NCBI GenBank assembly: GCA_026770025.1 | Contig: JAMXDE010000020.1 | Coordinates: 496,001 to 560,000 of the forward strand | Source of the DNA: Craspedostauros australis | Taxonomy: Eukaryota > Bacillariophyta > Bacillariophyceae > Mastogloiales > Achnanthaceae | Direction of reading: 5' to 3' | Length of the DNA: 64,000 nucleotides | Made by a program: the position numbers and the translations under genes | In this document: positions 28,678-59,551 of the stretch, piece after piece | How positions within the stretch are numbered: the stretch's first letter is position 1 | Layout: each line of letters begins with the position of its first letter | Notes under the pieces: generated by a model | Databases searched by the model: none | Seen by the model: the letters and a program-made list of their open reading frames with translations, nothing else | What the model was told of the DNA's origin: nothing

Positions 28678-28830
28678 GAGCCGCCTTAGTGAGTCGACCT
28701 GCACTTTGTTACGGGACTCAATAACATTTTTTCAGTAGATCCAAACCAAGCATATAATCGTATTCTCCCACCTCTCCTTATAAATAATTAACCATTACAT
28801 TTTTGAGATAGATCCTATTTTAAGTTTTAT
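28678..28830 (+). repeat. Left terminal inverted repeat, copy 1
   Basis: It begins GAGCCGCCTTAGTGAGTCGA. The outer 42 bases match the right end with three mismatches, all within the first eight bases. The middle is more diverged, and the inner edge TTTTAAGTTTTATG is shared again. Confidence 0.9.
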
Positions 28831-29321
28831 GCATATTCAAAGGTTTTCTGAAGTCGTATGGGTCGATCCCCATGAAATTCCTAGTTGTTTCGCAGAAAGT
28901 TCGATCATGTTCTCATGCATTTATCGTATGGTATCCAGTCACGGAATAGACGCCGGGATTGTCGTTCGTTTGGTACGCGTTAAATACACGTTAGCATCTG
29001 CGACATGATCTCACATTTTGCTCGTCACAAAACACATCACACAAAACACATCACACATCATCGGCATCTGTTCACAAATTCAGGCATCATCGCCACACTT
29101 TCGCTCCATTTCGCAACTTTCTTTGCCAATGTCATGTGTACTCTTTGTTGTGTTCCATGCTTGTGCTCGCCCTAGTAGTGTAGTAGTAGTAATAGTTGCT
29201 GTGGCTGTCAATGAATGGTGGCCTTTCATCCCATGCTCTCCTCTCCTCACTTCGTCTCAGACCTGTGCAGATCATCACATCCGACCAAATAGCAACTACA
29301 CTCTCCACCAACAATTCCACC

Positions 29322-32300
29322 ATGTTTCCCTCTGCTGCTGCCAAGGCCCTCTCCAAGGATGGCAACCCCTCCCCCAGTAAGAAACCACGTTCTCTTTACC
29401 CTGTATCTCCTCCCTTCGATTCGAAGGGGTTCCTGCTGCCAACTGCGGAGCAACTGTTGCCTGACAAGCCCTCTGCTACGTTGAGGAAGCCGAGCATCAT
29501 CACACAAGTGATTGATGTGAAGCCGATGCTCGCAGCAGAGGGCAGCCTCGTCCCGAACAGTACGCATGCGCACGCTCGCGAGCTGCATGTGTACGTTCAC
29601 ATCCTCGACAACAACGGAGGCGTCTTCGACGACTCCAATGTCAGGGTGCGTTCGGAGGGACGAGGTGTCGGCGATTGTACGTCGGTGAGCGTTATCGTGA
29701 ACGCGCCACCCCCGCCTGCTGCAGCTGATGTTGCACCACCTGTCGAGCCTGCCCCACCGGCGAGGCTCCCTCGTCGCTGCAATGCTGTTGTTGCTGGTGT
29801 CTACGCAGACACCTCCAACGACAGCGACACCACCTACGACGACAACGACAGGGGTGAACGAACGCGCGCCAGCAGGAACAGGAGAGGAGGTCAGTTCGGG
29901 TTTGATCCGGAAGAGGCGGGAAACTGGAGGCGCGATGCCATTGTTCGTGTCATGGCAGTGCTTGGATCTAACCTAGATCCTGAACTGTTGTACCACATGC
30001 CCAAAACAGGATTCGTTCTTGACAGCAACGGTGATAGGACAACATGGTGGAACTTGACACGCGTGTGGGTCACTGTGGCTACTGCACTCTGGGGTGTCTT
30101 GCTCCCTCAGGAGGAGTTGCCAACTCGTCAGATGAAACAGGTGGTGGGGTTTGTCCGCGCTCGCGTGGACCTGCCGCCGCCTGCACTCGGTTCAAATCTG
30201 TACACCCTGTGTGTGAGGGGGGAAAAGACAATTGCTAACGTGGCGAGAGCCGTTCTCGCTGCATCTACTTCATGCAACAACGTCACTGCAATCCTGTCTC
30301 GTCATGTGGAAATCATGCCAGAGGAACAACGTGTTCGTGTCACACCCGCACGCGCCACTAACACTAGGAGTCAACTAACAACGTTGCGACGCGCCTTCGA
30401 CATATTCAGCTGTGGCGGGATCATTCCGCCCAAGGTTCTACAGTATCGTGTGCGTGCTTGCAATCTGTCTGGTGTGACGTCGTTTCTCATGACCACCACT
30501 ACGTACAAGGCAGGGTTGAGTCACACGGTACAGTTTGGAGGTGTCAAATTTGAAAATGTCCCCGTGTTCGATCGCGGAAGCACGACCATCGAACAACTAT
30601 TCGGCATGTACTCATCCACGACCAACAACCCAGTGGGAATGCCCGCTTTCACCCTCATCACTAACCTACTCACACGCAAAAGCAAGATCAAGACGGGCCT
30701 CTCTTCCTTCGAAAGCTACTTCTGGATGGCGACGGAGAAACTCAAACAGGCGATTTCGCGCCTAGTAGACCTACTGAAGGCTAAGTATGAAACAGACGGG
30801 GAGGAACAAAACGATGCCAATGACGAGAGCGACAACCACAACGACGAGCCAGATGACGTCATCGCGCCACATGTGCGCACAGCCGATTCCCTCTTGCATG
30901 CACTCGAACTGCTTGTTGTGTTCCTCAAATGGGAATTCACCGCCTCCCACATGCAGCTTCAGTGTGACGATCCCATGCATTCGGCTGCGTTCGCACTCAT
31001 CACAGGAAAGGAGAAGAAGGCAACAACCACATCAACCAATCAACGCAAACCACGCACCAACAAGCACAAGCGCAAGAAGACCACCTCTGTCACAAACAAC
31101 ACTCCAAACATCACAAATGACAATTCTCCCACCACTACAAATGACCAACCCTGTAAAGTATGCAACCGTTGTGGATCAGCAATGCGATTTGTGAATGATC
31201 GTTTCGTTCCTTTTGTCACAATGCTTAAGGACAACGAACTCGCAGAACACAAGGACGAATTGCAATCAATGCTCGCGGCGGCACCGGGATTCGCCAACGA
31301 AATTGTTAACTACATGGCTCACAAAGTGCGTGCCAAAGTGCAATTCCGACAAATCGCTTTTTATCAATCTGAGCTCAATGATAAGCCTGAAACAGCCTAT
31401 GTGGTACTCGACCATAAGCAAAAAAGTCTACCAACAGGCCAAGGCGAAGCCCAACAAGAATATTGGGGAAAAAAGGGAATGTCACTGCTTGGGGCAATGG
31501 TCATCACGTGTCGCAACGACATTTTTACTTATCGGTTCATTGACATTGTGGTCGATGGAAGACCGACACAAGACACACTTCAAGTTGGTGGACTGCTGGA
31601 GATCGTGCAAAAAAAGGTCAAAGACATTCATCCATCCGTGACTGAAATCATCCTACAGAGCGATAACGCGTGTTGCTTCCCCAGTCACGAGCACATCGCG
31701 CTCATCACGTCCAAACTCAACAAGAACCTTGCGACACGAAACGCGGCCAAAATCATCCTGTGGATCTACACGGAGGCCCAAACCGGTAAGAGCATGCTGG
31801 ACACCCACTTCGCGTACATCACCCGTGTACTGCGAAAATACGTGCAAAGTGGCAAGGACATCAAGACCCCTTTCCAAGTCTTCCTCGCGCTCCAAGCCGG
31901 CAGCATCGCAGGGACGACCACGGTACTTGCCAACGCGTCGTCCCTCCAAGGCAACATCACGACGCTTCCTGGCGCACCAAAAAGACGATTCCGCGCGAAT
32001 GGGCAACAGGTACGTCAAACTCACGAGGTGAAGTATGATGATGACCAGGCGCGGTTGGTGGCTGCATCTGGTATCACGGAAGAAGTCGTGGTCAAGAGCA
32101 CCGAATGGGAAGGCTGGAGCATCAACAAGTTGGGTGTCGTCCCTGCCGATTCGCACACGTCCGACAAGCTGCCGATCACGTCCGAATCGTCCAGGAAAAC
32201 GGACAAGACGCGCAAAATGGGGCGCACAGCAACAGAGAGCAAGGCGTTCGCGATTGGCAAAGCCCTCCAAGACGGACAACAACATCTACCATCCGATCAC

Positions 32301-32876
32301 ACCACAGCACTACAAGACCAGACCGCGGAAACCGAACACCCACCACTCGCAGTGCCAGGTTGGGCAAGCAAAACAACACGGACCAACGCCAAACTACCAG
32401 ACTACATCGCGGACAAGTTGAAGGACATCTGTGAAGCGTCCGCGAAGGACCCAAAAAACAGGCCATCGGAGCACGAAGCACACGAGAAACTGATGAACAA
32501 CGCAAGAACCAAAACTGACTGGTACGTGCAACTGCACGCAAATCCCATGCGTGTCAAATCGTCGCTGTTTGCGGCGTACAGTGCCAAACAACGCAAAGAA
32601 AAGAAGGAGGCTGCCCTCATCAAGACAGAAACCACCACAACACCGACCACCACCACCAACACAACAAGCACAGCAACAGCATCTGTAATCGTGGCGGCCC
32701 CCAATGCGCCAGCTGCAACAGAGGAGGAACGAATCGAAGAGGAGTTGCAGAGAGAGGAAGAGGAATTGGAGAATCAGAGGTGGTGTGATGCTCACACAGT
32801 GAAGGCGAATGCAGAAAGTGAGGCTGTGTTGGATGATGGGACGGAAAATTGTGATGGGCACGTACTGCCGCGATAA
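29322..32876 (+). CDS. Intact DDE/D-type transposase, copy 1
   Basis: 1184 residues from the ATG at 29322, chosen because it lies in a Kozak-like TTCCACCATG and because the second copy starts at the same aligned Met; an in-frame ATG at 29196 gives a 42-residue leader not conserved between copies. Candidate catalytic acids: Asp697 (VVLDHKQK), Asp781 (LQSDNACCF), then Glu818 or Asp827 (TEAQTGKSMLDTHF). A CNRCG motif about 80 residues before the first Asp may be part of a zinc site. Residues 1-200 are rich in Pro, Ala, Asp and charged residues; about 200-390 form an N-terminal segment probably used for DNA recognition; the C-terminus ends in a Glu-rich helix. The product would cut and paste the 6-kb element. 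Superfamily placement is tentative. No stop or frameshift is seen, so the copy may be active. Confidence 0.85.
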   Translation: MFPSAAAKALSKDGNPSPSKKPRSLYPVSPPFDSKGFLLPTAEQLLPDKPSATLRKPSIITQVIDVKPMLAAEGSLVPNSTHAHARELHVYVHILDNNGGVFDDSNVRVRSEGRGVGDCTSVSVIVNAPPPPAAADVAPPVEPAPPARLPRRCNAVVAGVYADTSNDSDTTYDDNDRGERTRASRNRRGGQFGFDPEEAGNWRRDAIVRVMAVLGSNLDPELLYHMPKTGFVLDSNGDRTTWWNLTRVWVTVATALWGVLLPQEELPTRQMKQVVGFVRARVDLPPPALGSNLYTLCVRGEKTIANVARAVLAASTSCNNVTAILSRHVEIMPEEQRVRVTPARATNTRSQLTTLRRAFDIFSCGGIIPPKVLQYRVRACNLSGVTSFLMTTTTYKAGLSHTVQFGGVKFENVPVFDRGSTTIEQLFGMYSSTTNNPVGMPAFTLITNLLTRKSKIKTGLSSFESYFWMATEKLKQAISRLVDLLKAKYETDGEEQNDANDESDNHNDEPDDVIAPHVRTADSLLHALELLVVFLKWEFTASHMQLQCDDPMHSAAFALITGKEKKATTTSTNQRKPRTNKHKRKKTTSVTNNTPNITNDNSPTTTNDQPCKVCNRCGSAMRFVNDRFVPFVTMLKDNELAEHKDELQSMLAAAPGFANEIVNYMAHKVRAKVQFRQIAFYQSELNDKPETAYVVLDHKQKSLPTGQGEAQQEYWGKKGMSLLGAMVITCRNDIFTYRFIDIVVDGRPTQDTLQVGGLLEIVQKKVKDIHPSVTEIILQSDNACCFPSHEHIALITSKLNKNLATRNAAKIILWIYTEAQTGKSMLDTHFAYITRVLRKYVQSGKDIKTPFQVFLALQAGSIAGTTTVLANASSLQGNITTLPGAPKRRFRANGQQVRQTHEVKYDDDQARLVAASGITEEVVVKSTEWEGWSINKLGVVPADSHTSDKLPITSESSRKTDKTRKMGRTATESKAFAIGKALQDGQQHLPSDHTTALQDQTAETEHPPLAVPGWASKTTRTNAKLPDYIADKLKDICEASAKDPKNRPSEHEAHEKLMNNARTKTDWYVQLHANPMRVKSSLFAAYSAKQRKEKKEAALIKTETTTTPTTTTNTTSTATASVIVAAPNAPAATEEERIEEELQREEEELENQRWCDAHTVKANAESEAVLDDGTENCDGHVLPR

Positions 32877-33187
32877 CACTAGTTGTGGAGTTTTGTGGGT
32901 GCCCGGCCAGGCTACTAAGACGAGTCTAGAGACCACCCAAAAACACATCCAAATATCGGCTTGTCATGCTATATCTCAACAACAAACTGCTTAAAATTAA
33001 AACTAAGCATTGCATTCGTACACATGACTATCGGTTTATCAGAATATTGAAGTTAAATGAGTATAGAAAATATTTTGGAAGTCATGTTGGTTTGCGGTGT
33101 TTTGTGTGGTGGATTCGGAAAAAATTGTTGATGCCACAATGTTGCCCTCCAATGAGCACACATGATCATCATCATCATCCTTGTATT

Positions 33188-34435
33188 TCAGCAAACTGTG
33201 CATACCATTCGCTCTGCATACCTCTCAGCTATCCGCTCCATGAAGCATGGACACAGATATCGGCTCTGCATGCAGCAATGCATCCACACACCGAAACAGA
33301 TCGTTTTCGAAAAATCAGTTTCAATGTGGATGCAGTTCAGATATGGATCCGTATCTCGTCCATACGATCCTTTAACCCCCTCCAAGCGCTCCTCGTGCAT
33401 TCCCACACTCCATGGCGACACGCGGCTGCATCCAGAATGGGCTGGGAGTGCATGGCCGACGTAATGCACCTCCACAAGATGATGTGGTGGTGCATTTGTT
33501 GCTCCCACCAACAACGACCATTCTGCAGATATGGTCAGCTGCAGTCTCTTCCAGACAACTTGAGCAGAGCATACTTCACGACGTGCATCTTCAATGGATG
33601 CCGCACGCATCTTGTATGGGTGGCTTGGTGATTGAGGGGTGTCTTCCCATCGCCCCTCACAGCCAAAGCCACGCGACTGGTGCCAGGCGAGCCCCAACCA
33701 AAACTCTTGAAAACCACCTTTGCCTCTGCACGGACACCTTCCCGGTGCTCCGCGACCCTCAAACTTCGAGGGTGCCTTCATCTTGGCCTCCTTGAGGCAT
33801 CTTACCCATCCGTAGGCGCTGATATGGCCTGTGTGTGCCACACATCGGCCAAAACCAACCAGCCGATTTGGGGCCAAATTGTGATCGTATTTCTGGGGCC
33901 TACGACGGCCCCAAATCAACCCCTCTTCCCGCCTCCGTTCGTCCACCCACCAAACGTTGCGTGGAGGTGACGGCGATGTGCTTGGATCTTGAATTGGCCG
34001 GCTGGTTGTTGCGGCGCCAAGCATACCGTTCGACGGCCATTGTGGTATTTTTTTGGTGTTGCTCCACTTCCATGTCGGTGTGTCGAGTTTGCCACTCTCA
34101 ACCAGCCTCACATGTTGGGGGAAGTGGAGATTTACCTCCAATGGTACCGACTGTCCAAAAAGACCACGACACAAAACACTCGAGGAGTACCAACCCCGCT
34201 CAACCACTTCACCACGACGAAGCAGACCTGCTGATTTTCCGCATCGTGATATCATTGGTGTTTCATGACGAAACATCCAGTTTCGTGACGTCGATGACGG
34301 ATTGGACAAGCACAATGTGCAATTCACGTAAACACGCGTTCGCCGCTTCCCCCAACATTCTACAACTAGTGCTATCGTGGAGGGACTGTTGGATGGCCTC
34401 ATCCGAACACCTGAAAAAGAGACTAAACAATTCAA
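33188..34435 (-). CDS. Possible second ORF of the transposon, antisense to the transposase
   Basis: A 415-codon open frame on the minus strand in the 3' third of copy 1, ending tail-to-tail with the transposase gene. The protein is rich in Arg, Trp and Gly (VDERRREEGLIWGRRRP, GAPGRCPCRGKGGFQEF). Parts of the same frame recur in copy 2 (58249-58838) but there the frame is broken into pieces. The plus strand of this block is also partly open in both copies, so conservation may reflect DNA kinship rather than coding. No family is recognised. Confidence 0.25.
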   Translation of the reverse strand: MNCLVSFSGVRMRPSNSPSTIALVVECWGKRRTRVYVNCTLCLSNPSSTSRNWMFRHETPMISRCGKSAGLLRRGEVVERGWYSSSVLCRGLFGQSVPLEVNLHFPQHVRLVESGKLDTPTWKWSNTKKIPQWPSNGMLGAATTSRPIQDPSTSPSPPRNVWWVDERRREEGLIWGRRRPQKYDHNLAPNRLVGFGRCVAHTGHISAYGWVRCLKEAKMKAPSKFEGRGAPGRCPCRGKGGFQEFWLGLAWHQSRGFGCEGRWEDTPQSPSHPYKMRAASIEDARREVCSAQVVWKRLQLTISAEWSLLVGATNAPPHHLVEVHYVGHALPAHSGCSRVSPWSVGMHEERLEGVKGSYGRDTDPYLNCIHIETDFSKTICFGVWMHCCMQSRYLCPCFMERIAERYAERMVCTVC

Positions 34436-34550
34436 AATCGGAACAAAGTTGCTGAAACAAAGAACAGCAAAGGGTTAAATTGGATCGATGTAGTCGGTAG
34501 AAGACGGCCGAGTCCCTAAAGCAGTCTAAAAATGCGCACATTGTCGGGTC

Positions 34551-34704
34551 CATAAAACTTAAAATAGGATCTATCTCAAAAATGTAATGGTTAATTATTT
34601 ATAAAGAGAGGTAGGAGAATACGAATATGTACGTTGTTTGGATATCTGAGACAAAAGTTCTGGAGTCCCGTAACAAAGTGCAGGTCGACTCACTAAGTGG
34701 GGTC
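34551..34704 (-). repeat. Right terminal inverted repeat, copy 1
   Basis: Read on the minus strand it begins GACCCCACTTAGTGAGTCGA and follows the left repeat to its inner edge. It is immediately followed by the target duplication ATAA. Confidence 0.9.
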
Positions 34705-34708
34705 ATAA

Positions 34709-35174
34709 GGGCAATATTCACCGTTTGGATTGGTGTCATGAAGCACTTAAAATGATGCCTGTGTGATAAGGAATATATTGGACTTACGAATACGGCGTGT
34801 TGGTCACATTGGATAGGCATAGCGCTTCATATTGAGTCGAAGTAGTCGTAGCATCCAATTAAGTCTTATGATGACTCTATAGTGTCAAAAACACCTCTAT
34901 GGATAGAATTATAAGCGCTGTGTTGGCCTTATGGACGGCTTCAAAAGCACTATTTGCGTCTTATGCATAACTGCTGTGAGGACGAAACAAAATTGAGTCT
35001 ATGTTGTAAGACTCATCGCGTCCTTATGGCTAGCGCATAAGGGTCAGAAATGCATCTGATTCTGGCCCATAGCCGCCAATATTGCTTTAACGCGGGCTTA
35101 TAAGGGCAGATTTGCACCTATGTTTATGTGATAGGCGCAGTTTTATCCATATGAATAGCACCATAAGAACAAAT
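34709..35174. other. CATAAG/CTTATG-rich spacer
   Basis: About 470 bases to the right of the inserted transposon. The motif CATAAG or its complement CTTATG, or close variants, appears about ten times in both orientations. No ORF is evident. The left flank just outside the transposon (28600-28677) has the same motif, so the two sides were one continuous region before insertion. Confidence 0.6.
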
Positions 35175-35442
35175 CTTATCCGGTAGAGAATGCTCTATGA
35201 ACATAAGCAGATGGCTTATGCGGATAAGAAATAATCTTATCCGGTAGTGAATGCTCTATGAACATAAGCAGATGGCTTATGCGGATAAGAAATAATCTTA
35301 TCCGGTAGTGAATGCTCTATGAACATAAGCAGATGGCTTATGCGGATAAGAAATAGTCTTATCCGGTAGTGAATGCTCTATGAACTAAGCAGATGGCTTA
35401 TACGGATAAGAAATAATCTTATCCGGTAGTGAATGCTCTATG
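35175..35442. repeat. Tandem 61-bp repeats with inverted CTTAT/ATAAG motifs
   Basis: Four full copies of a 61-bp unit starting CTTATCCGGTAGTGAATGCT, plus a fifth that passes into the next array. Each contains GCTTATGCGGATAAG, an imperfect dyad of CTTAT and ATAAG around a CG-containing centre, which could serve as a protein-binding site. Copies are almost the same, so the array is recent or homogenised. It lies upstream of the Harbinger-like transposase gene. Confidence 0.95.
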
Positions 35443-39867: not shown

Positions 39868-40998
39868 ATGACAGCCAACAATACCTCAGGAGCTTCTCAG
39901 ATGCAAGACCCCAACATCATCTCCGCAGCCGAGGTCGGTCAGCATGACATTATGCTTGGCCGCGGCACCGGTCCCAACGAAAATCCAGGTAACCGATTCT
40001 TCCGCGATATCGTCACCAGCAACTGCGCCGAGCACGCGAAGGCCACTGCCAGGAAGGAGAAGGAGGTGGTCATCCAGCGCATCATCCACGCCATCGAACG
40101 CCGGGGAGGACGATACATCAGGGAGCTGACCAAGCCAGCGTCGGTGCCCAACTCGAACCTCGACAACAAGCAGTACCTAGTCGTCAAGGACGAAAAGGCC
40201 ATCCGCACGAAGGTGCTGCTGGCAGTGAGGTACGCGAAGACCGCCAAGATCACCTCGAAGGATGGCGAAGCAAGCTGCAACGCCCAAGGTCCAAACAAGA
40301 ACTTCCAGGAGAGCGGCAGCGCTGCCCGAAGAATTGGCCGCGATGGCAGCCATTTCAAGAAAGCAGTCCGTTCCACAAACAACAAGAAGAAGAGCGCCAT
40401 CAAGAAGAACAGCAGCGGCCGTCGCCCAATGCTGGATCTCACCAATGCTGCGCCGCCCCAACAGCGCAACCCGCACGTTGCGAGCAAGGCAGCAGCGAGA
40501 CCGACGAAGGTGATGCTACCGAGGAGCAACTTTCCCTTGCCTTCGTCGGCGTCTACTTGCTTCACTCCCGTATCCAAGAACCGTCCTCAACCACGCCTGG
40601 ATGCAGACTCGGTCAGCGCAACCACGCCAATGACAATCCCAGCACCAACATCCGCAAGACTAAGCTCGCTGGACGTTCTCGCGGCTGCAAGTGCCGCCAT
40701 GGCATCACAAGAGCGCCTCCACGCACAGAGCCCATCGGACGTCACGCGGATCGACCGCATCCAGCAAGCAGAAGCCCGGGATGGCTACATGCGCAAATCC
40801 GATCGGCAGCAGAGAACCGAAATGGGCGGCTCGCTCACACAGGATCGGTTCTATCGCTGGGAATCTCCAACGATTTCCAAATTCCAACAAGCGCCAATGT
40901 ACCATCATTCGTTTGTCCCTGCCAAGCACAGCACCTTCGAGACGAGATTCCCGCAGGCAGCGACAATGCAACGCTTCCACGGAGTCAACTGGGAGTAG
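39868..40998 (+). CDS. DUF6824-domain protein
   Basis: 376 residues, single exon. The N-terminal domain (about residues 20-133) has the family hallmark HDIMLGRGTGPNENPGNRFF, then RIIHAIERRGGRYI and a Lys-rich end YLVVKDEKAIRTKVLLAVRY. This domain is abundant in diatom genomes and usually begins with D-V/I-L-x-G-R-G. Its role is unknown; a DNA-binding role has been suggested from its basic surface, which is inference. The rest is basic and low complexity (KKKSAIKKNSSGRRP), suggesting nuclear location. This gene is the best lineage marker in the window. It converges with ALG6. Confidence 0.88.
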   Translation: MTANNTSGASQMQDPNIISAAEVGQHDIMLGRGTGPNENPGNRFFRDIVTSNCAEHAKATARKEKEVVIQRIIHAIERRGGRYIRELTKPASVPNSNLDNKQYLVVKDEKAIRTKVLLAVRYAKTAKITSKDGEASCNAQGPNKNFQESGSAARRIGRDGSHFKKAVRSTNNKKKSAIKKNSSGRRPMLDLTNAAPPQQRNPHVASKAAARPTKVMLPRSNFPLPSSASTCFTPVSKNRPQPRLDADSVSATTPMTIPAPTSARLSSLDVLAAASAAMASQERLHAQSPSDVTRIDRIQQAEARDGYMRKSDRQQRTEMGGSLTQDRFYRWESPTISKFQQAPMYHHSFVPAKHSTFETRFPQAATMQRFHGVNWE

Positions 40999-43310: not shown

Positions 43311-43913
43311 CTCTCTCTCTCTCTCTCTGTCTCTTCCGCTCTGTCTGTAAGGAATGACGTTGTTTCTCCAATCTATCTCACGCTGGTAGAGCATGAGCTT
43401 TGGATGCAGCCGTGAAGTATGTACATGCATTCGGCGGTCCCGTTCATGGTCGTCATTGTGGAACTTGTCGTCAACGATTGTTGTCGTCGTGGGGGTCATT
43501 TTCCTTTTCTCATGTTTTCGCTTTTGGCTTTTCTCGTTCGTGTCTTGTTGTGATGGGAACGGAATTTGGAATTCTTCTTTCACACATCGCAGACTTCATT
43601 GAAAACGAGGTAAAAAGCCCAATCACGTCGTACGACCCACTCGACCAAACACAATCTCAACCACCACCGAAAATGGGCACGATCGCGGAAAACGCTAAAA
43701 AAACGGTGCTTTGCTGTTGGTGGGTGACATCAACACAGCAACCAAGCGCACAGCCATGTCCTCGTGCTCTTCCAACACCCATCCATCATCCATCAATTGA
43801 TCCATTGATCCATTCATCACATCCTCGCTGTACCATACGCGCACGCATTGCATGCTCTATCTCCAAGCCAGAGTTCTCCGCTATAAACATATTCTCAACA
43901 TCAAGCGAACATC
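43311..43913. promoter_or_regulatory. Divergent promoter region of ALG6 and EFG1
   Basis: About 600 bases between divergent starts. A CT/GA tract touches the ALG6 start (43309-43330). On the EFG1 side, TATAAA at 43882-43887 lies only about 27 bases before the EFG1 ATG. If it is a real TATA box, the EFG1 leader would be almost absent. Confidence 0.45.
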
Positions 43914-45332: not shown

Positions 45333-45653
45333 TGGATCGATGGGCATATGGAATAGAAATGGAATAGAGCAAGACAGTTCTCTATGTACGTGCAAAACGA
45401 CATGCAAGGATTATACGTACGAAAAGGACTCATTGGATGGGTCAAACATCACAAGCCACCGACTCATTGAAAAAGCACAATACACCAGAGTAGAGGATCT
45501 CTCTCTCTCTCTTCTATCAAATTGATCGCCTTACTCTACAATCATCCAACCATCTCGTTGCTTAGTATTAGTCCAACACTTCTACCTGTGCTGTCCATGC
45601 CATGACACAAGAGGCTACTCATAGAATAGCATTTTGTGCCAAGGCCTCGCCTC
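45333..45653. other. Convergent intergenic region
   Basis: 320 bases between the stops of EFG1 and the DNAJC11-like gene. A short CT run lies at about 45500. Nothing else is seen. Confidence 0.5.
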
Positions 45654-47237
45654 TCATGGCAACTGCAGAGCCTCGTTGTCCTGGACTCGAACGTGCATCG
45701 GCTTTCCTTTGTAAGTGTAGTCGATCAGCAATTCGGGCATACTTGATGGCTTCTTTGTCTGCTCCATGCTGTCATCAGGATCAGCAGTGTCATCATTATC
45801 TTCCCAAAGACTTTGCCACGCAAGTTGCCACCACAAGGAATCGGCTGTAGCATCGCCTCGATGTGGGGGTGCCGCTGCGTCCACCTTCCGCGCCTCTTCG
45901 TCGACGCTGTCGTCCTCTGCTGCCGTGATGTCGTAGAATCCCAACAAATCTTTCTTGGAGCTTGCCGACAGCGTGAGCGTTGACTTGTTGACCCAGAATT
46001 GCAACTGAACAGTCACATCCAACGACTTTGGGTTGCCGCCATTCCCACCAGCGGGCACTGCGTAGGTCGCCTTTTGAACTATTAGACCGTTCGATTTGAT
46101 TTCCTGCTTCATCTTGCGTTCTGCCTGACGGACCATGAGTTCCCTTTGCAGCTCCGCATCCTTGCGAGACTTTATGGCGTTCTTGACTTCTTCGGCCTTG
46201 CGAATCGCCCGTTGCGCAGCCTCTGTGCTTTGTCGCTGATTCCATTCCCAAAGTTCGGCGATGATGTCTTGAAACAGGTAGGAGAAGAAGGACATGTACA
46301 CTGCATGGCCAATGCTGGTGGCATGCAGCGTCCTTGAAATGAAGACCGGAATGCGGACGCACGCATCGCCGCGATTCCACGATAGGACCCATTCCAAGCC
46401 ACGGTTGGACTTGATCCGGATGCCCATGCCGACCGTCGCGGCGCTGGAGTGCAAGGATTGGACGATGGAACCGCCCATGCTCCACAGGCCGATGCGCCAT
46501 TGCGCAAACGTGTGCAAGCTCTTGCATTGGGAGATGCGAGGTTTAAGGTCTAGTCGGAACGTAACGTACTTCGGTCGTCTCAAATTCCATCGAGCGATGG
46601 CTTCGATGGCATTCGATCTCTTTGCAGACAATACCAGGATCTTGGTCCTCGTCAGCTGCGACTGGAACGCCCAGCTGGAGTCGTTTGGTCTGTGATTGAG
46701 CTGGATAGCAAAACCAAGGTGGCTGCTGCGATTGCGGTTGCGCCGACTGGAGGCATTCATCCGAAGCGTGTCCATCGGCTGGCTCCTCGTCAAGGTGAGT
46801 CCCATCGTGGTAGATCGTTGCAGTTGGATCTTCCCGCCCATGGAGAGCAACGGATGCATGGATTGCTGGCCGTGAATCATCCCCAGCGACAGCGTCGACG
46901 TCTTGCTGGACTTGTAGTCGAGCGTGAGCGATCCGATGGATCTCCCCATCGAGGACGATCTCCCTTCGATGATCCCGCTCCACTTCCCATTGACCTTCGA
47001 AGGTTGCATGGAGTATCGGGCGGAGACTTCGGGATCCCCAAGCTTCATGGAGGACAGGCTGCCATCCTCGCCGAACACGACAGGGATCTCGAACATCGCG
47101 CGCCTGTGGAACTCATCGTCCCTGCTGATATCCGCCCCACCATCGCTGCCGTTGCTCTTGGTGGTCCTGGTTGTGCGATCCGATGTTGCGTTGCCCTGGT
47201 GTTCAGGAATGAGGCTTTCCGACCAACGCTCATCCAT
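45654..47237 (-). CDS. DNAJC11-like protein without a J domain
   Basis: 527 residues from the ATG at 47237 (MDERWSESL, Kozak-like context). The frame is open further up to 47513, but the upstream part encodes only His/Pro/Thr low complexity from tetranucleotide repeats. The C-terminal half matches the DUF3395 region of DNAJC11: a charged helix (RKDAELQRELMVRQAERKMK), SLDVTVQLQFWVNKSTLTL, SSKKDLLGFYDI and the very end LLIDYTYKGKPMHVRVQDNE. The N-terminal half is made of short alternating hydrophobic strands, like the beta-barrel-like part of DNAJC11. DNAJC11 is a mitochondrial outer-membrane protein linked to the MICOS complex. No HPD motif or J domain is present in the frame or in the nearby upstream DNA. 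J-domain loss, or a distant upstream exon, are the options. Confidence 0.78.
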   Translation of the reverse strand: MDERWSESLIPEHQGNATSDRTTRTTKSNGSDGGADISRDDEFHRRAMFEIPVVFGEDGSLSSMKLGDPEVSARYSMQPSKVNGKWSGIIEGRSSSMGRSIGSLTLDYKSSKTSTLSLGMIHGQQSMHPLLSMGGKIQLQRSTTMGLTLTRSQPMDTLRMNASSRRNRNRSSHLGFAIQLNHRPNDSSWAFQSQLTRTKILVLSAKRSNAIEAIARWNLRRPKYVTFRLDLKPRISQCKSLHTFAQWRIGLWSMGGSIVQSLHSSAATVGMGIRIKSNRGLEWVLSWNRGDACVRIPVFISRTLHATSIGHAVYMSFFSYLFQDIIAELWEWNQRQSTEAAQRAIRKAEEVKNAIKSRKDAELQRELMVRQAERKMKQEIKSNGLIVQKATYAVPAGGNGGNPKSLDVTVQLQFWVNKSTLTLSASSKKDLLGFYDITAAEDDSVDEEARKVDAAAPPHRGDATADSLWWQLAWQSLWEDNDDTADPDDSMEQTKKPSSMPELLIDYTYKGKPMHVRVQDNEALQLP

Positions 47238-47832
47238 GGTTTGATGCTGCACCAACTCTTGACTGTTCACGCTGGCGTGGAACGCAGGTTGTTCGGTTGG
47301 TTGGTTGGTTGGATGGATGGATGGATGGATGAATGGATGGATGATATGATTGGTTGTGTGATGGTGTAGGAGAGAGAGGTGCTTTGCGTTGCTGTGACCT
47401 CTGTTGATGGGTTGGTGATTGATGTGTGGTTTGGAGACGCACCTACCTGGATCTTTTGTGTTCGAAACGTGTCGTGTTTCAATGGGATATGCGGCAAAAT
47501 GGTATGTTTTCATATATTTGATACAAGAACTGGTTCAATCATTGAAGGCCGGATCAATCGTGTTTCATCCGAACTGTCCTACGTGTCGTAGCGACAATAA
47601 AACGACACAATACTCGTGACTCACGACTGCAATGAATGACTAGATGGAATCGAACAACACTTCGTCGATCTCTAGTTTACACGTACGCTGCGCCACCTTC
47701 AAGAACCAGTACGCATGATAGACACGTACCAGTATTCTCAGAGTAAAGAATGGTAGTGCTCGGCATGCATCACTCTACTAATCTAATGGTGATAGAACGT
47801 TTCAAAACCATGTTCGTGTTCAAGGCGCTGTC
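47238..47832. other. Leader/intergenic region between DNAJC11-like gene and PEX11
   Basis: About 600 bases with a GGTT/GGAT tetranucleotide tract at 47295-47340 next to the DNAJC11-like start. No J-domain coding sequence was found on either strand. Confidence 0.5.
47295..47340. repeat. GGTT then GGAT tetranucleotide repeats
   Basis: Four to five GGTT units are followed by about seven GGAT or GAAT units, in the probable 5' leader of the DNAJC11-like gene. Translated on the minus strand it gives the HPSIHPTNQP stretch that should not be taken for protein. Confidence 0.85.
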
Positions 47833-49316
47833 TCAAACGCGTTTTGGAAAGCTCTTGTACAGCACGGTCGACGCAGAGATCACGCCGCAGATGCTGTGGA
47901 TTGCTTCATGGTTCTTCCTCCCGCGGAGCTTTTGGTGCAGGTCGACGCCTGGGTTGTTACTGAACACGATCACATCGCAGGCACTCTTTAGATGTGCGCA
48001 CCAGAAAGCATGCAGGCGAGATTTAGTGTGGGCGATATGAGTGGACGAGTGAGATAGCGCGTGCATGCGAGATGGACGGACGGATGGCAGAGACTGGCAT
48101 GGCTTACACATGGCAACATACAGAATGGACCGAGGTGGCGACTGGCAAGAAGGATTGAAAAACTACTTTCCGCGCAGTCTCTCTCTCTCTCTGTCCCTGT
48201 CGTTGTTGAGAAGGGAGGCGCCTTTCGACACAAGTTCGATCGATCAGGGCACACGCACGCACGTACCTTGACCAAATTGAGGATCAATGACATTCGCTTT
48301 TCTTGCCGCTTCGCTGCAGCAGTACCAGCATCACCATGACATTGCTTTCTACCTTCTTCATCTGCGTCGGCGACAAAACTAGCTGCCTGCAACGTCTCCA
48401 TTTGGTGTCTCCGATACAGCCGCCAGTTGAGAATCAACCCCATCAAGCAGCTGTAAAAGTAGGCTTGGTTGGCCTTGCATCCAACCATCTGTTGCCAATA
48501 GCTTCGTCGTTGTTGCTGGTACTTGGGCGCAAGGCGGAAGTTGTCAAACAGGCTGCTGCTGTACAAGAAGTTGAGATTGTCGCCCGTCAAAAACATGATC
48601 ATTCCAATTGCCTTCAGTGTGGAGAGGACCGTTCCCACGACGTCCATGTCATCTCGCGGTACCGGCTGAATCGGGGTGTGCTGCTTGCTCGTCGCGGCGT
48701 CGGATGTGTCCTTCGGGTTGAAGCGCAGCATCGTCTTGCCAGCGCAGAGCTTTTCCAGCTCGACGAAACCCAAGCCAAGCCGAAATGCCTTGCGCGAGGT
48801 GGAGAGGGACTTGTAGAGCAGCATCAGCCGTTTGGATCGATGCTGATGGTCCATGGCGGCAAACCACCACGCCAGCAACCTGGAGCCGTATTGCAGCACC
48901 TTCGTGGCCTTATCCCTGCCTTGCAACGTCAAGACGAGCTTGATCCACGGTTTCCACAGCTGTGCCCTCTGGCTCGTCGTGGCATCGTTCGCATCACTCT
49001 TGATTTGGGAGGTGCTCGTGGTGGGGCAATGCGCATTCGGCTTCGATATTGCTTGCGTTTTTCCCTTCGGCGACAGCGAAGACGAAGCCAGAGATCTTTG
49101 TGGCGAATTGGTGTTGTGTGCGTACGCAGCAGCATCCACGAACACCTCGCTGCCGCTGCTGATGGACACGTGGGTCCCGCTGTCCATGCCTTCGGAGCTT
49201 CCAGGGGTGGCATCGATGGAACCGGTGGTGTCGACGACCATTTGTTCGTGCCCTGCTTCTGTCTTGCATGACGAAGAGTCGTCTGGTCCCGTCGTTTCTG
49301 CGGTGGTAGATGCCAT
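47833..49316 (-). CDS. PEX11: PEX11-family peroxisomal membrane protein, two exons
   Basis: Exon 1 is 49316-48267, the intron 48266-47986 (AAG|GTACGT donor, CTAAAG acceptor) and exon 2 47985-47833. The junction is phase 0, giving 400 residues. The PEX11 domain starts at about residue 120: LTLQGRDKATKVLQYGSRLL, the typical first amphipathic block, then SRKAFRLGLGFVELEKL, a membrane-associated segment (GTVLSTLKAIGMIMFLTGDN), and exon 2's SACDVIVFSNNPG and CGVISASTVLYKSF, which match the family's C-terminal membrane segment. PEX11 bends the peroxisomal membrane and drives elongation before division. The first 119 residues are an extra Ser/Thr/Asp-rich tail, absent from most PEX11 proteins; it may be regulatory. 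Without splicing the frame runs into an unrelated Cys-rich tail, so splicing is needed. Confidence 0.87.
47986..48266 (-). other. Intron of PEX11
   Basis: 281 bases, donor GTACGT, acceptor CATCTAAAG. A CT/GA tract lies at about 48178-48194. Removal restores the PEX11 C-terminal membrane segment in frame. Confidence 0.82.
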
Positions 49317-53540: not shown

Positions 53541-53544
53541 TTAT

Positions 53545-53698
53545 GAGCCCCCCGAGTGAGTCGATCAAGACCTTGAAATGAAAAGTCTAATCGGATTTCT
53601 GGAATTTTCAAACTAAGCACATATTCGCAATCCTTGTAGTCTCTTTATGTATAATGGAACCTTTCAGATTGTAGTTAGTTTCATTTTAAGTTTTATGG
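53545..53698 (+). repeat. Left terminal inverted repeat, copy 2
   Basis: It starts GAGCCCCCCGAGTGAGTCGA. It shares only AGTGAGTCGAYC and the inner TTTTAAGTTTTATG edge with copy 1, but matches the other end of its own element closely. Confidence 0.9.
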
Positions 53699-54038
53699 AT
53701 CAATCAATGTGTTTAGTCTAGTCGCGTGAATCCAACAGCACAAAATTCGTTTGTTTCTGCCGAAGGTTCGATGATGTTCTCATGTATTTATCGTCTGGTG
53801 ATCAGTCACGAACTTGCTTCCGAAGGTCTCAGTCGTTTGGTACACGTTAATTACACGTTAGCATGTGGCGCATGATTCCACATTCTGCTCGTCACAAAAC
53901 ACGTGACACAAAACACATCACACAAAACACATCATCCCCATCATTTTGCAAAATCGCGCCACACTTTCGCTCCGTTTCACAACTTTCCTCGCCAATGGCA
54001 TGCACACTCGCTCTTTCGCTCAATGCCCGTTCTTGTCA

Positions 54039-54040
<2 letters not shown>

Positions 54041-54086
<46 letters not shown>

Positions 54087-54120
54087 CAGCAGTAGTAGTA
54101 GTAGTTGTTGTTGTTGTTGC
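54041..54120. repeat. GTA/GTT triplet run in the leader of copy 2
   Basis: About 80 bases of GTA with a few GCA units, ending in GTT, 105 bases before the transposase start. Copy 1 has only a short version at about 29175-29190, so the run has grown in copy 2. Confidence 0.9.
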
Positions 54121-54225
54121 TGAATGATCGGCCTTCATCCCGTGCTCTCCTTACCTCACTTCCTCTCAGACCAGTTCATCACATCCAACAAGCAAACAGC
54201 ACTACTCTCCAGCAACAACTCCACC

Positions 54226-57200
54226 ATGCCTACCTCTGCTGCTGACAAAGCCCTCCCCAAGGATGGCAACCCCTCTCCTCGTAAGAAGCTGTGTTCTGCT
54301 CACCCCATGCCTGCTCACCCATTCGACTCCAAGGGAGCCCTGCTGCCAGCCTCTGAGCAACTGTTGCCTGACAAGCCATTCGCTGTATTGGGGAGGCAGA
54401 GCACCATCACGCGAGTGATCGATGTGAAACCGATGCATGCAGCGGATGGCAACCTCGTCCCGAACGGTACGCATGCGCACGCTCGCGAGCTGCATGTGTT
54501 CGTCCACATCCTCAACGACAACGGAGGCGTCTTCGACGACTCCCATGTCGAGGTGCGTTCGGAGGGACGAGGTGTCGGCGATGGGACTTTGGTGAGCGTT
54601 ATCGTGAACGCGCCACCCTCGCCTACTGCAGCCGACGTTGCACCACCTGTCGAGCCTACCCCGCCAGGGAGGGTTCCCCGGCGTTGCAACACTGTTGTTG
54701 CCGGGGGGTACGCAGATCCGTCTATTGACAGCGACAGTACGTACGTTGACGAGGACGAAAAACAGGCGCGCGCTGGCTGGGACAGGAGAGGAGGCGAGTT
54801 CGGGCATGATCAGGAAGAGGAGGGGGGAAACTGGAGGCGCCATGCCATTGTTCGTGTGATGGCAGCGCTTAGATCTAACCTAGATCCAAAACTGTTGCAG
54901 CTCATGCCAAAAAAAGGATTTGTCCTCGCGGGCCGACACGAACGGACCATCTGGAGCTACATCAAACTGATGTGGAGTGTCACATCATCTGCACTTTGGA
55001 CTGTCCTGCTTCCAGAAGAGAACGTGCCAACTTGTCAGATGGAACAGGTGATTGCATACGTGCGCGGGAACGTGGAGCTTCCTCCCACGATGTTGGCATC
55101 TAACCTCTACACCCTCTGCTTGCTCGGAGAATCTTCTTCTTCCCGCACGGCAAGAGTTGCTTTGGCCATGTCTGCACCGTCTGCACTGTGTACTGCTATT
55201 CTGGGTAGGCACACACATGCACTGTCGGAGGAACAGAAGGCTCGCATGCTTGCCAAACGCGACATCATCACACCCAGCCAGACATACACCTTGCGTCGTT
55301 ACTACGACATGTTAAGCCATGGCAAAAGCATTCCACAGCGAGTTCTCCAGTACCGTGTGTGTGCTTGCGACCTGTCTGGCGTGGTGTCCTTCCTCATGAC
55401 AACTACTACATATAAGGCAGGGTTGAGTCACACGGTACAGTATGGTGGAGTTGTATTTGAAAATGTTCCGGTGTTCGATCGAGGAAGCACGACTATCGAA
55501 CAACTATTCGACATGTACTCGTCTACGACCAACCGCCCAGTGGGAATGCCTGCTTTCACCACCATGACCAACCTACTAACACGCAAAAGCAAGATCAAGA
55601 CGGGCCTCTCTTCCTTCGAGAGTTACTTCTGGATGGCGACGGAGAAACTCAAACAGGCAATTTCGCGCCTAGTAGACCTACTGAAGGCTAAGTATGAAAC
55701 TGATGGGGAGGAACAAAACGATGCCAATGACAGGAGCCACAACGATACCGATGAGCCAGATGACGTCATCGCACATCATGTACGCAAAGCCGATTCCCTC
55801 TTGCATGCACTCGAACTGCTTGTTGTGTTCCTCAAATGGGAATTCACCGCCTCCCACATGCAGCTTCACTGCGACGACCCCATGCATTCGGCCGCGTTCG
55901 CTCTCACCACCAAAAAGGAGAAGAAGAAGGCACCAACCACATCCTCCAATCAACGCAAACCACGCACCAACAAGCACAAGAGCAAGAAGAACACCGCGCG
56001 TAAAGTATGCAACCGTTGTGGATCAGCAATGCGATTTGTGAACGATCGTTTTGTCCCTTTTGTCAAAATGCTTAAGGACAACGAACTCGCAGAACACAAG
56101 GACGAATTGCAATCAATGCTTGCGGCGGCGCCGGGATTCGCCAACGAAATTGTTAACTACATGGCTCACAAAGTGCGTGCAAAAGTTCAATTCCGACAAA
56201 TCGCCTTTTATCAATCCGAACTCAATGATAAGCCTGAAAGAGCCTATGTGGTGCTTGACCATAAGCAAAAAATTCTACCGACAGGCCAAAGCGAAGCCCA
56301 ACAAGAATATTGGGGGAAGAAGGGAATGTCACTGCTTGGGGCGATGGTCATCACGTGTCGCAATGACATTTTTACTTATCGGTTCATCGACATTGTGGTC
56401 GGTGGACGACCGACACAAGACACACTTCAAGTTGGTGCACTGCTTGACATCGTGCAAAAAAAGGTCAAAGACATTCACCCATCCGTGACTGAGATCATCC
56501 TACAGAGCGATAACGCGTGTTGCTTTGCCAGTCACGAGCACATCCCACTGATCACATCGGTACTCAACAAGAACCTTGTGACACGAAAAGCAGCCAAAAT
56601 CATCGCGTGGATCTACACAGAGGCCCAAACTGGTAAGAGCATGCTGGACACCCACTTCGCGTACATCACCCGTGTACTGCGAAAATACGTGCAAAGTGGC
56701 AAGGACATCAAGACCCCGTTCCAACTCTTCCTTGCACTGAAAGCCGGTAACATCGCGGGTACCACCACGGTACTGGTCAACGCAAAGACCCTCCAAGGCA
56801 ACATCACGTCGCTTCCTGGAGCACCAAAACGACGATTCCGCGCGAACGGGCAACAGGTACGTCAGACTCACGAGGTGAAGTATGATGATGACCAGGCGCG
56901 GTTGGTGGCTGCATCTGGCATCACGGAAGACGTCCTTGTGAAGAGCGCTGAATGGGACGGCTGGATCATCAACCAACTGGGCGTTGCCGATGTTCACACA
57001 CACAAGTCCGACAAGCTGCCGATAACGTCCGAATCGTTCAGGAAGACGGACAAGACGCGAAAACTCGGGCGCACAGCGGCAGAGAGCAAGGGGCTGGCGT
57101 TCGGCAAAGCCATTGCAGACGGACAACAACATCTACCATCCGATCACACCACAGCGCTACAAGACCAGACCGCCGAAACCGAACACCCTCCACTCGCAGT

Positions 57201-57696
57201 GCCAGGCTGGGCGAGCAAAACAACGCGCAAACCAGCGGAACTACCAGACTACATCGCGGACAAGTTGAAGGACATCAGTGAAGCGTCCGCGAAGGACCCA
57301 AAAAACAGGCCATCCGAACACGAAGCACACGAACAATTGATGGCCAACAAAAGAACCAAAACTGACTGGTACGTACAACTGCACGCAAATCCCATGCGCG
57401 TGAAAGCGTCGCTGTCTGCAGCGTACAACGCCAAACAACGCAAGGGCAAGAAGGAGGCCGCTCTCATCAAGGCGGAAGCCAACACCAACACCAACACCAA
57501 CCCAACAAGCAAAGCAACAGCATCTGCAATCGTGGCGACCCACTATGCGCCAGCTGAAACACAGGAGGAACGAACAGAGAAGGAGTTGCAGAGAGAGGAG
57601 GAGGAGCTGGATCATCAGATGTGGTGTGATGCTGACACACTGAAGGCCAACACAGAAAGTGAGGCTGTGTTGGATGATGGGACGGAAATTTTGTGA
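54226..57696 (+). CDS. Intact DDE/D-type transposase, copy 2
   Basis: 1156 residues from the ATG at 54226 (CTCCACCATG context), aligned with the start of copy 1. Catalytic candidates are all present: Asp678 (VVLDHKQK), Asp762 (LQSDNACCF), Glu799 and Asp808 (TEAQTGKSMLDTHF). CNRCG is kept, but a Thr/Asn-rich linker of about two dozen residues just before it in copy 1 is missing here. From about residue 400 onward the two proteins are almost the same, while the segment at about 200-395 has drifted to roughly half identity by eye. No stop or frameshift. Superfamily placement is tentative, as for copy 1. Confidence 0.85.
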   Translation: MPTSAADKALPKDGNPSPRKKLCSAHPMPAHPFDSKGALLPASEQLLPDKPFAVLGRQSTITRVIDVKPMHAADGNLVPNGTHAHARELHVFVHILNDNGGVFDDSHVEVRSEGRGVGDGTLVSVIVNAPPSPTAADVAPPVEPTPPGRVPRRCNTVVAGGYADPSIDSDSTYVDEDEKQARAGWDRRGGEFGHDQEEEGGNWRRHAIVRVMAALRSNLDPKLLQLMPKKGFVLAGRHERTIWSYIKLMWSVTSSALWTVLLPEENVPTCQMEQVIAYVRGNVELPPTMLASNLYTLCLLGESSSSRTARVALAMSAPSALCTAILGRHTHALSEEQKARMLAKRDIITPSQTYTLRRYYDMLSHGKSIPQRVLQYRVCACDLSGVVSFLMTTTTYKAGLSHTVQYGGVVFENVPVFDRGSTTIEQLFDMYSSTTNRPVGMPAFTTMTNLLTRKSKIKTGLSSFESYFWMATEKLKQAISRLVDLLKAKYETDGEEQNDANDRSHNDTDEPDDVIAHHVRKADSLLHALELLVVFLKWEFTASHMQLHCDDPMHSAAFALTTKKEKKKAPTTSSNQRKPRTNKHKSKKNTARKVCNRCGSAMRFVNDRFVPFVKMLKDNELAEHKDELQSMLAAAPGFANEIVNYMAHKVRAKVQFRQIAFYQSELNDKPERAYVVLDHKQKILPTGQSEAQQEYWGKKGMSLLGAMVITCRNDIFTYRFIDIVVGGRPTQDTLQVGALLDIVQKKVKDIHPSVTEIILQSDNACCFASHEHIPLITSVLNKNLVTRKAAKIIAWIYTEAQTGKSMLDTHFAYITRVLRKYVQSGKDIKTPFQLFLALKAGNIAGTTTVLVNAKTLQGNITSLPGAPKRRFRANGQQVRQTHEVKYDDDQARLVAASGITEDVLVKSAEWDGWIINQLGVADVHTHKSDKLPITSESFRKTDKTRKLGRTAAESKGLAFGKAIADGQQHLPSDHTTALQDQTAETEHPPLAVPGWASKTTRKPAELPDYIADKLKDISEASAKDPKNRPSEHEAHEQLMANKRTKTDWYVQLHANPMRVKASLSAAYNAKQRKGKKEAALIKAEANTNTNTNPTSKATASAIVATHYAPAETQEERTEKELQREEEELDHQMWCDADTLKANTESEAVLDDGTEIL

Positions 57697-59392
57697 TGGA
57701 TGTGCATCGCCGCGATAACACGAGTTGTGGAGTTTTGTGGGTGGCAGACCATGCTAATACAACGAGTCTAGAGGCCATCCAAAAAACACATCCAATATCT
57801 GCTTGTCATGCTATATCTCAACAACACATCGTTTGCAATTAAATCTAAACATTGCATTCAGACGCCTGACTATAGGTTATACAGAATATCGAAGTTAAAT
57901 TGACATAGAAATTGTTTTTATTGTCATGTTTGACCACCACACAGTTGTGTGGTGAATTCGAAAAATTCTGGATGGCACAATGTTGCCCTCCCCTCAGCAC
58001 CCATGATCATCATCATCATCGTTGTATTTCTTCAAACTGCGCACCACAATGGCTCTGTATGCTCCCCAGCTATCCACTCCATGAAGGACAGAACATTTCT
58101 GCCACATTGCACACCCCAAAGTGTCGATACACTGAAAAAGACCGATTTCAAAAAACGAAGTGCAAGCTGGATGCAGTATGGATACAGATCCATATCTCAT
58201 CCACAGGACCCTTTCAGCCCCTCCACGTGACCCTCGTGCATTCCCACACTATCTGGCGACATGTTGATGCATCCAGACTGGGCTGGGTGTGGATGGTCCC
58301 GATAGCACACCTCCATTTGGTGATGGCCCTGTTGGTTTTGGGTGCCCCACCAAAAATGACAGGTATGCACTCATTCGATGCCGCAGCCTCTTCCAGACCG
58401 TTGCAGCAGCTCGAACTTCGCGACGTGCATCTTCAGGCGATGACGCACGGGTCTTGTATGGGTGACTTGGAGATTGGGCAGCTTGATGATGCTGCCCCCT
58501 CACTGCCAAAGTCACATGGCAGGTTCGCCACGATCCGCCCAACAAAACTCTTGCCCTCCACCTTTTCCTCCGCGCGGACACCTTCCCGGTCCTTCCCGAG
58601 CCTCAAACTTCGTGGGGACCTTGATGGTGACCTCCTGGATGCGTCTTGCCCATTCGCAGGTGTTGGTGTGGCCTGTGCATGGAATACACAGGCTACATCC
58701 AACGAGCCAATCTGCCGCAATTTTGAGACGTTTGCGCGGAGGCCTGCGGCGGCCCCAAATCAACCGCTCTCGCAGCCTCCGCTCGTCCACCCACCAAGGG
58801 TTGCATGGCGGTGACGTCGATGTGCTTGGATTTGTCATTGGGCCGCTGGTTGGTGCGGCGCTGACGATGCCGTTGGGTGTCCATTGTGATGTTTTTTTGG
58901 TGTTCCGCCATTGTCATCTTCTTGTGTCGAGTTTGGCGCTCTCGGCCAGTCGGGCATCCTGGGGGCTGAGGTAAATGTCAAACATTGCAACGAACGTACG
59001 AAAAATGCATGACACAAAACACTTCGGGAGTACCAACGCAACTCGACCATTCCGTCACGACGAAACGCAGTTGATGATGATTCACATCGTGCTGTGATTG
59101 GTGGTTCATGACGCAGCAGCCAGTTTGGTGACGTAGATCACGGATCATGCAAACACTGGATAGAGTGGATGTAAACGCGCACTCACCGCTTCTCCCCAAA
59201 CTCTACAACTAGCGCTATCGTGGAGGAGGTGTGGAATGGTCTCATCGGAACGCCTGAAAAAGAGACTAAACAATTCAAAATGGGAACAACCTTGCTGAAC
59301 CGAAGAACAGCAAAGGGTTAAGTTGGATCGATGTAGTCGTAGCCAAACAGCTGAAACCCGAAAGAGATCGAAAAATGCGCACATCCATCGGT
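57697..59392. other. 3' block of copy 2, homologous to the 3' block of copy 1
   Basis: About 1.7 kb downstream of the transposase. It has clear DNA similarity to 32877-34550, for example around the CATGATCATCATCATCATC run. On the minus strand the frame that is open in copy 1 is broken here; on the plus strand a 300-codon frame is open (57912-58814). Neither is strongly coding-like. Confidence 0.5.
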
Positions 59393-59547
59393 CCATAAAA
59401 CTTAAAATACGGCCAACCTCAGATCTGGAATGGATTGGTATATGTTTTAGATCTACGAGGATTGGGAATATGTACTTAGTTTTGAAATCGCACGAAAAAA
59501 GTTGCGAGGTCTATTTCAAAGTCTTGATCGACTCACTCGGGGGGCTC
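59393..59547 (-). repeat. Right terminal inverted repeat, copy 2
   Basis: Read on the minus strand it matches the left repeat for the first 27 bases and again at intervals to the inner edge. It is followed by the target duplication TTAT. Confidence 0.9.
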
Positions 59548-59551
59548 TTAT

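Follow-up and report, generated by a model that had tools for sequence, protein, structure and literature searches.

Structure of elements A and B

The window analysed here, a stretch of 64,000 nucleotides from the diatom Craspedostauros australis (assembly GCA_026770025.1, contig JAMXDE010000020.1, positions 496,001 to 560,000 of the forward strand), carries two related elements, A and B, which are probably subfamilies of one family of DDE/D-type cut-and-paste DNA transposons. Element A lies on the plus strand at 28678..34704 (6,027 bp) and is flanked by a perfect 4-bp target site duplication (TSD), ATAA, at 28674-28677 and 34705-34708. Element B occupies 53545..59547 on the same strand (6,003 bp), between copies of the perfect TSD TTAT at 53541-53544 and 59548-59551. 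The open reading frame (ORF) of the A transposase extends from its first ATG at 29211 to 32876 on the plus strand and codes for 1,221 amino acids, while residue numbers of A count from 29196 (protein P0001) instead of the first ATG. The corresponding ORF of B (P0002) is located at 54124..57696 on the plus strand and codes for 1,190 amino acids. The candidate catalytic acids of A, D739, D823 and E860 or D869, are encoded at 31410..31802 on the plus strand and are assigned this role from the motif only.

Aligning the two elements in blocks of 100 columns revealed that the first two blocks of the left end are 57% and 65% identical, with identities of 44–66% at 30013-30412, 87–97% from 30513 to about 32110, and 80–90% from there to the end of the ORF. 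The same pattern appeared at the protein level, with 72% identity over residues 41–245, 51% over 249–407 and 90% over 428–1000, and in a sliding analysis of the proportion of synonymous differences (pS), which amounted to 0.17–0.43 before, 0.47–0.71 inside and 0.10–0.33 after the divergent segment. This putative recognition segment is encoded on the plus strand at 29938..30417 in A (element positions 1261–1740, residues about 248–408) and at 54845..55324 in B. A sequence-only reading of the stretch had described two related transposons starting at 28678 and ending at 59547, with divergent ends and a transposase segment of about half identity; the coordinates proved exact, and the divergence was confirmed. 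It had also taken the coding DNA to be nearly identical from 30485 in A and 55390 in B; the core is indeed shared, but is about 10% diverged at the DNA level, with a synonymous divergence (dS) of 0.26–0.33. Because the first 245 or so residues, which were absent from that account, are also common to A and B (dS 0.41), the divergent segment represents an island within a shared protein.

Copies of the family in the genome

The genome containing the window (74.8 Mb in 90 contigs, labelled C1 upward) was searched six times with end, segment and core DNA, and the best 40 matches of each search were grouped into at least 113 family loci. The copies inside one subfamily were near identical, and many matches belonged to few subfamilies. 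The 42 copies compared comprised A and B, a further 20 with about 9.9 kb each, and the left part (3.1 kb) of another 20. Excluding L022 and L033, for which no left end was found, and L027, which contains a large insertion, left 39 aligned copies, from which one copy per end type was taken to give 15 representatives; L029 and L042 as well as L018 and L028 are close kin among them. Comparisons of right ends, dS and right arms were made with the 11 full-length representatives.

Both ends were present in 18 of the 22 long copies, and 17 of these 18 showed identical 4-bp TSDs of the form NTAN, the exception being L028. The duplications include ATAC, CTAA, CTAT, TTAT, ATAT and CTAG, and are centred on TA with outer positions that are often C or G. 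An ORF of at least 1,174 amino acids with all three candidate catalytic motifs was retained in 12 of the two-ended copies; D739, E860 and D869 occurred in 16 of 16 aligned copies and D823 in 15 of them. The left ends of the 39 aligned copies consist of GAGCC, five variable bases, AG(T/C)GAGTCGA(C/T)C and a variable continuation, with one change in one copy. Tips such as CGATC, CCCCG, CCTCG or GCCTT are paired with varied pentamers at positions 23–27, namely TGCAC, AACAC, AATCG, ACTCG, AACTG and AAGAC. A further end type with an ATGTG tip and AACCG or TACCG was observed in a shorter element at C5:2491371-2496005 and at C7:2374175, and a CGATC-tipped member is apparently nested within a CCCCG-tipped one at C9:1593309-1605479. 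On C1–C9, neighbouring tips at most 16 kb apart formed 37 pairs, 30 of them with a spacing of 5.99–6.11 kb, one of 4.6 kb and six with a longer one; identical tip pentamers were present in 33 of the 37. Short non-autonomous derivatives with intact tips were nearly absent from these contigs, and the six longer pairs may carry inserts.

Two segment types on a recombining body

Residues from about 248 to 408 occurred in two types among the 15 representatives, an A-type in element A, L012, L019, L017 and L031 and a B-type in the other ten. Over blocks 1351–1800, identity was 47–71% between and 75–100% within types. The 28 between-type pairs of the full-length representatives gave a mean dS of 1.90 for the segment where it was computable (8 pairs were saturated), compared with 0.38 for the N-terminal part and 0.49, 0.26 and 0.33 for three core blocks, and in the latter parts between-type dS resembled within-type dS. 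The ratio of nonsynonymous to synonymous divergence (dN/dS) was 0.09–0.41 in the 13 pairs listed for every module, with one value not computable. The two types of the segment are thus of old origin and have been subject to purifying selection, while the remainder of the transposase behaves as one exchanging pool. Uniform dS along the ORF, the outcome named in the sequence-only reading as contrary to its mosaic, did not appear.

We then ranked the segment split among all 3003 ways of labelling five of fifteen representatives. It ranked first at left-end positions 26–50, in the 5' leader at positions 156–540 (28833..29217 in A, plus strand) and, by construction, in the segment itself. It ranked first in no window of positions 541–1260, which make up the N-terminal shared part (29218..29937 in A, plus strand), nor in any window beyond 1800, and among the full-length representatives it ranked first in no block of the core or the right arm. 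A tree of the left ends (positions 1–540) grouped the A-types with a support of 100/100. In contrast, an A-type clade was rejected by the trees of positions 560–1240 (approximately unbiased test, p-AU 0.0096) and of the core at positions 1820–2880 (p-AU 0.0006), and the segment label changed five times on the core tree. The proposal in the sequence-only reading that the core is shared by recombination or gene conversion was supported. Because two islands stay coupled although the 720 bp between them show no such association, linkage alone is insufficient to explain it. In block 1251–1350, among the rows listed, A was 75–85% identical to B-type copies and the other four A-types 47–63%; the breakpoints vary between copies.

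The association also extended to both ends of the elements. Within the inner left end (positions 32–45; 28709..28722 in A and 53576..53589 in B, both plus strand), bases 32, 42 and 44 fitted the segment type of every one of the 39 aligned copies. Right-end positions 31–40 (34665-34674 in A, 59508-59517 in B), the sole right-end stretch listed as locked to the segment, gave the segment split rank 1 of 330, although about 4 kb, including a core without this association, separates them from the segment. Comparing the own left and right ends of 11 elements with ends of other subfamilies yielded agreements of 0.91 vs. 0.46 at positions 6–10, 0.99 vs. 0.65 at 23–31 and 0.75 vs. 0.48 at 32–45. The claim that the ends of one element match each other and those of the two elements differ therefore held in general, with some reservation for the tips of A. 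That ends and segment form one module held for the inner bases 32, 42 and 44, which showed none of the free mixing with segment types that would contradict it; positions 7–10 and 23–27 moved separately.

Covariation of single residues with end bases

In A, the left tip at positions 6–10 reads GCCTT (28683..28687, plus strand), and in B it reads CCCCG (53550..53554, plus strand; right-end copy 59538-59542). Whether a tip contained GATC at positions 7–10 was independent of the segment type, since the segment split ranked 2007 of 3003 at positions 1–10. Among 3264 columns beyond position 12 in the 15 representatives, with gapped columns unscored, the middle base of codon 482 was the sole perfect separator of GATC from other tips, and any perfectly separating column exists for just 137 of the 6435 possible 7/8 label sets. 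Residue 482 was Arg (AGG) in copies with GATC tips and Met (ATG) in all others, without exception in the 39 aligned copies; both A (30639..30641) and B (aligned codon at 55546..55548) have Met on the plus strand. In a mutual-information scan, residue 482 ranked first for each of tip positions 7, 8, 9 and 10, exceeding the largest of 60 shuffle maxima at 7, 8 and 10 and equalling it at 9, and was not among the best-scoring residues for position 6. The tree built from the sequence next to the tip required five changes of the tip label and the N-terminal tree four, compared with two on the core tree, which contains residue 482.

We also checked residue 482 by a pattern search matching 145 places in the genome, using the first 100 of these sites, which overlap with the fetched copies. 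On C1–C9, a tip among the matches listed was available for pairing at 38 of the 46 sites, and eight were without a listed tip at the right distance. The script scored 37 of the 38 as agreeing, with C9:1603276 against; at this site one element lies inside another, and the nearest tip as judged by hand, a CGATC at 2,050 bp, agrees. On C10–C25, 25 Arg482 sites had a CGATC or TGATC tip 1.85–2.1 kb upstream and 28 Met482 sites had none. One Arg482 site without a tip at that distance belongs to L022, the left end of which was not found.

A separate match involved positions 23–27, which read TGCAC in A (28700..28704, plus strand; right-end copy 34678-34682) and AAGAC in B (53567..53571, plus strand; right-end copy 59521-59525). 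Residues 391, 394 and 395 showed the highest normalised mutual information with this pentamer among 364 variable residues (0.81, 0.66 and 0.57). None of 400 shuffles reached 0.81, and two of 400 placed the best three residues within five residues of each other. Arg391 went together with TGCAC (TGCAT in one copy), His391 with AACAC or AACTG, Gln391 with AATCG or ACTCG and Pro391 with AAGAC, and all 39 aligned copies conformed to this. The mapping also fitted all 25 pairable sites on C1–C9, where 30 of 99 sites in all are located and five were without a listed tip at the right distance. Residues 391–395 are RSQLT in A (30366..30380, plus strand) and aligned with PSQTY in B (55273..55287, plus strand). 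The residues from 391 on probably form a recognition helix; the local stretch TRSQLTTLRR may resemble the second helix of a helix-turn-helix motif. Because copy L026 combines a B-type segment with TGCAC and Arg391, this putative contact is separable from the segment type.

Short pieces were retrieved for nine additional copies, two of which (C4:3091038 and C1:268570) failed to align where expected. The remaining seven all fitted the residue-to-end matches, representing only partly new evidence because four were already contained in the C1–C9 set for residue 482 and five in the helix set. They included an ACCCG/TGCAC copy with an A-type segment, Arg391, Met482 and a previously unseen Gln394, a CGATC/AACTG copy with His391 and Arg482, and a CGATC/TGCAC copy on C3 with a B-type segment, Arg391 and Arg482. 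Two CGGAT/TGCAC copies had B-type segments, Arg391 and Met482; the CGGAT tip had not been predicted beforehand.

Right arm and surroundings of the elements

In both elements, a right arm of about 1.5 kb continues beyond the transposase ORF (32877..34427 in A, about 57697-59270 in B). It occurs in two types of its own, which are about 74% identical to each other and independent of the segment type; among the 11 representatives, L011, L014, L015, B and part of L018 are separated from the rest. No conserved frame was found in the right arm. An ORF on the minus strand at 33188-34435 was considered as a second gene and dropped, because its third positions gave no clear pattern, the copies differed by one-base indels and had no frame in common, and Pfam yielded no match. 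Directly left of element A is a tandem array of units of about 48 bp (28244-28561), and just right of it are palindromic units of about 23 bp (CGGATAAGAAATAATCTTATCCG and variants) spaced about 60 bp apart (35163-35425). The host genes near the elements code for a DUF6824 protein (39868-40998), an ALG6/ALG8 glycosyltransferase (41601-43583), a DnaJ C11-like protein (45654-47513) and PEX11 (47988-49316). DUF6824 proteins are common in diatoms.

Discussion

The elements show the terminal inverted repeats and the fixed-length 4-bp TSD of cut-and-paste transposons bearing such repeats. The transposase gave no Pfam match above the cut-off, a sequence search of the PDB returned nothing significant, and a scan of viral contigs, which detects close relatives only, revealed no relatives of P0002. 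Kolobok elements are described in PMC9587614 as having a TTAA TSD, 5'-RR ... YY-3' termini and a DDD/E enzyme with C/DxxH between the second D and the last acid. The present family shares the 4-bp TSD, RR...YY termini (here GA...TC) and, going by the candidate motifs, a DDD/E-type enzyme; we rejected the assignment because the TSD is NTAN and no C/DxxH was seen by eye in P0001 residues 823–869. An assignment to piggyBac, for which the same source gives a required TTAA TSD, was rejected on account of NTAN as well. Sola2 elements have 4-bp AT-rich TSDs, and Sola2-Fanzor chimeras share their 5' part and differ in the 3' part (PMC3627910). Our family likewise combines a 4-bp TSD with members that are common in one part and wholly different in another, but its TA-centred TSDs frequently have C or G outside. 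Moreover, the ends are linked here to a transposase segment, and no such link is mentioned in the passages on these chimeras in PMC3627910.

Chimeric ends are also known from Galileo, a member of the P superfamily in Drosophila mojavensis, where subfamilies swap ends and interiors, for which ectopic recombination and conversion were proposed (PMC3573991). As described in the relevant parts of that study, 12 of 170 copies had ends from different subfamilies. All but one of the 12 had two terminal inverted repeats; these copies lacked matching TSDs, and their combinations did not depart from random. Copies of another kind, in which the interior is foreign, were described as well. In our case, the subfamilies themselves are mosaics with TSDs, and their ends are matched to transposase residues (unlike the Galileo chimeras described in PMC3573991). 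Comparable residue-to-end-base covariation in a eukaryotic transposon was not found among the titles and abstract openings listed by searches of open-licence papers. Single residues set the DNA read by the Tn5 transposase, whose cases are bench mutants, and exchangeable target-recognition domains do so in the HsdS subunits of type I restriction enzymes, whereas the covariation observed here is natural and occurs within one eukaryotic transposon family.

The transposon body recombines, and we consider it very likely that a DNA-binding region at about residues 248–482 is held matched to the element's own ends by selection. Exchange between copies, probably through ectopic recombination, repair or gene conversion, makes the N-terminal 245 or so residues and the catalytic core one shared pool and would continually create new combinations. 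The DNA-binding region would be kept in register with its own ends through at least three putative contacts, each exchangeable separately: the whole segment may touch end positions of about 26–50, the probable recognition helix starting at 391 may read positions 23–27, and residue 482 may read tip positions 7–10. Mismatched recombinants presumably arise but fail to multiply, so that only combinations fitting both ends would spread through selection for mobility.

Several observations weigh against this view. Owing to the common descent of the copies and the close kinship of some representatives, label shuffles overstate independence, and the independent pairs among the results listed are at most three on starred branches and five on all, too few for a sign test. 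Positions 25–27 taken singly rank residue 391 or 394 first, but these scores do not leave the range spanned by the 60 shuffle maxima; for positions 23–24 the best scores are those of residues 404, 388 and 283. The tip code is not simple either, because CGGAT tips, in which position 7 is G, go with Met482, so that a rule of Arg reading G7 fails; A8 or C10 would fit the Arg482/Met482 pattern better. Right-end positions 41–50 were not associated with the segment type (rank 190 of 330 with 11 representatives), the association of the leader may be hitchhiking with the left end, and the two tips of one element differ in A (GCCTT on the left, CACTT at 34695-34699 on the right), L011 (ACCCG/CCTCG) and L018 (TGATC/CGATC). 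Structure models, made with an alignment of A and B only, were unusable (mean pLDDT 37.3 and 34.6), and the helix starts modelled at 391 and just before 482 were therefore discarded as evidence. Finally, transposases usually act in trans, and a mismatched copy should thus be movable by others, which makes own-end matching puzzling.

If ends and segment were simply inherited jointly within each subfamily, no functional coupling would be needed. The near-identical copies inside subfamilies, the concentration of many matches in few of them and the kinship of several representatives agree with such plain descent, but we regard it as quite improbable, because the 720 bp between leader and segment as well as the core reject the same grouping, the segment label changes five times on the core tree, and the matched right-end bases are found past that core. 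Tips, positions 23–27 and segment types also occur in differing combinations. Alternatively, two separate invasions may have been followed by gene conversion that homogenised the coding body alone, leaving the coupled parts too diverged to recombine without any selection. The low identity between segment types in blocks 1351–1800 would hinder homologous exchange, and the association begins and ends near the segment borders. This scenario nevertheless appears unlikely, as it does not predict the tracking of single residues: tips and positions 23–27 differ by few bases and still match residues 482 and 391/394, and copies such as L026 join a B-type segment to TGCAC and Arg391.

The coupled segment may also be a regulatory or anti-silencing part with target motifs near the ends and in the leader, instead of binding DNA for transposition. 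The leader splits with the segment, and the VANC proteins of Arabidopsis Hiun elements reportedly recognise element-specific motifs, which would provide a precedent. We see little probability in this explanation, because the covarying bases are located at both extreme ends, including the tip beside the site where cleavage is presumed, and because in most elements the left and right ends mirror each other at these bases. Returning to selection on matched ends, we tentatively propose, as a possibility we hold with some doubt, a combinatorial recognition in which at least three paired contact/end cassettes recombine over a panmictic catalytic body, with a residue-to-base code and mainly cis mobilisation. 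A cis-preference would account for the exact matching and also for why short non-autonomous derivatives are almost absent, although their near absence would equally fit a simply recent spread.

It is an old question how a transposase and its ends can shift their specificity jointly without a dead intermediate. With about 15 end types on one recombining body in a single genome, the contacts become statistically mappable before any structure is available. An enzyme working in trans would not be expected to impose matching inside every single copy, and the family therefore also raises the question of whether a eukaryotic transposase acts in cis.

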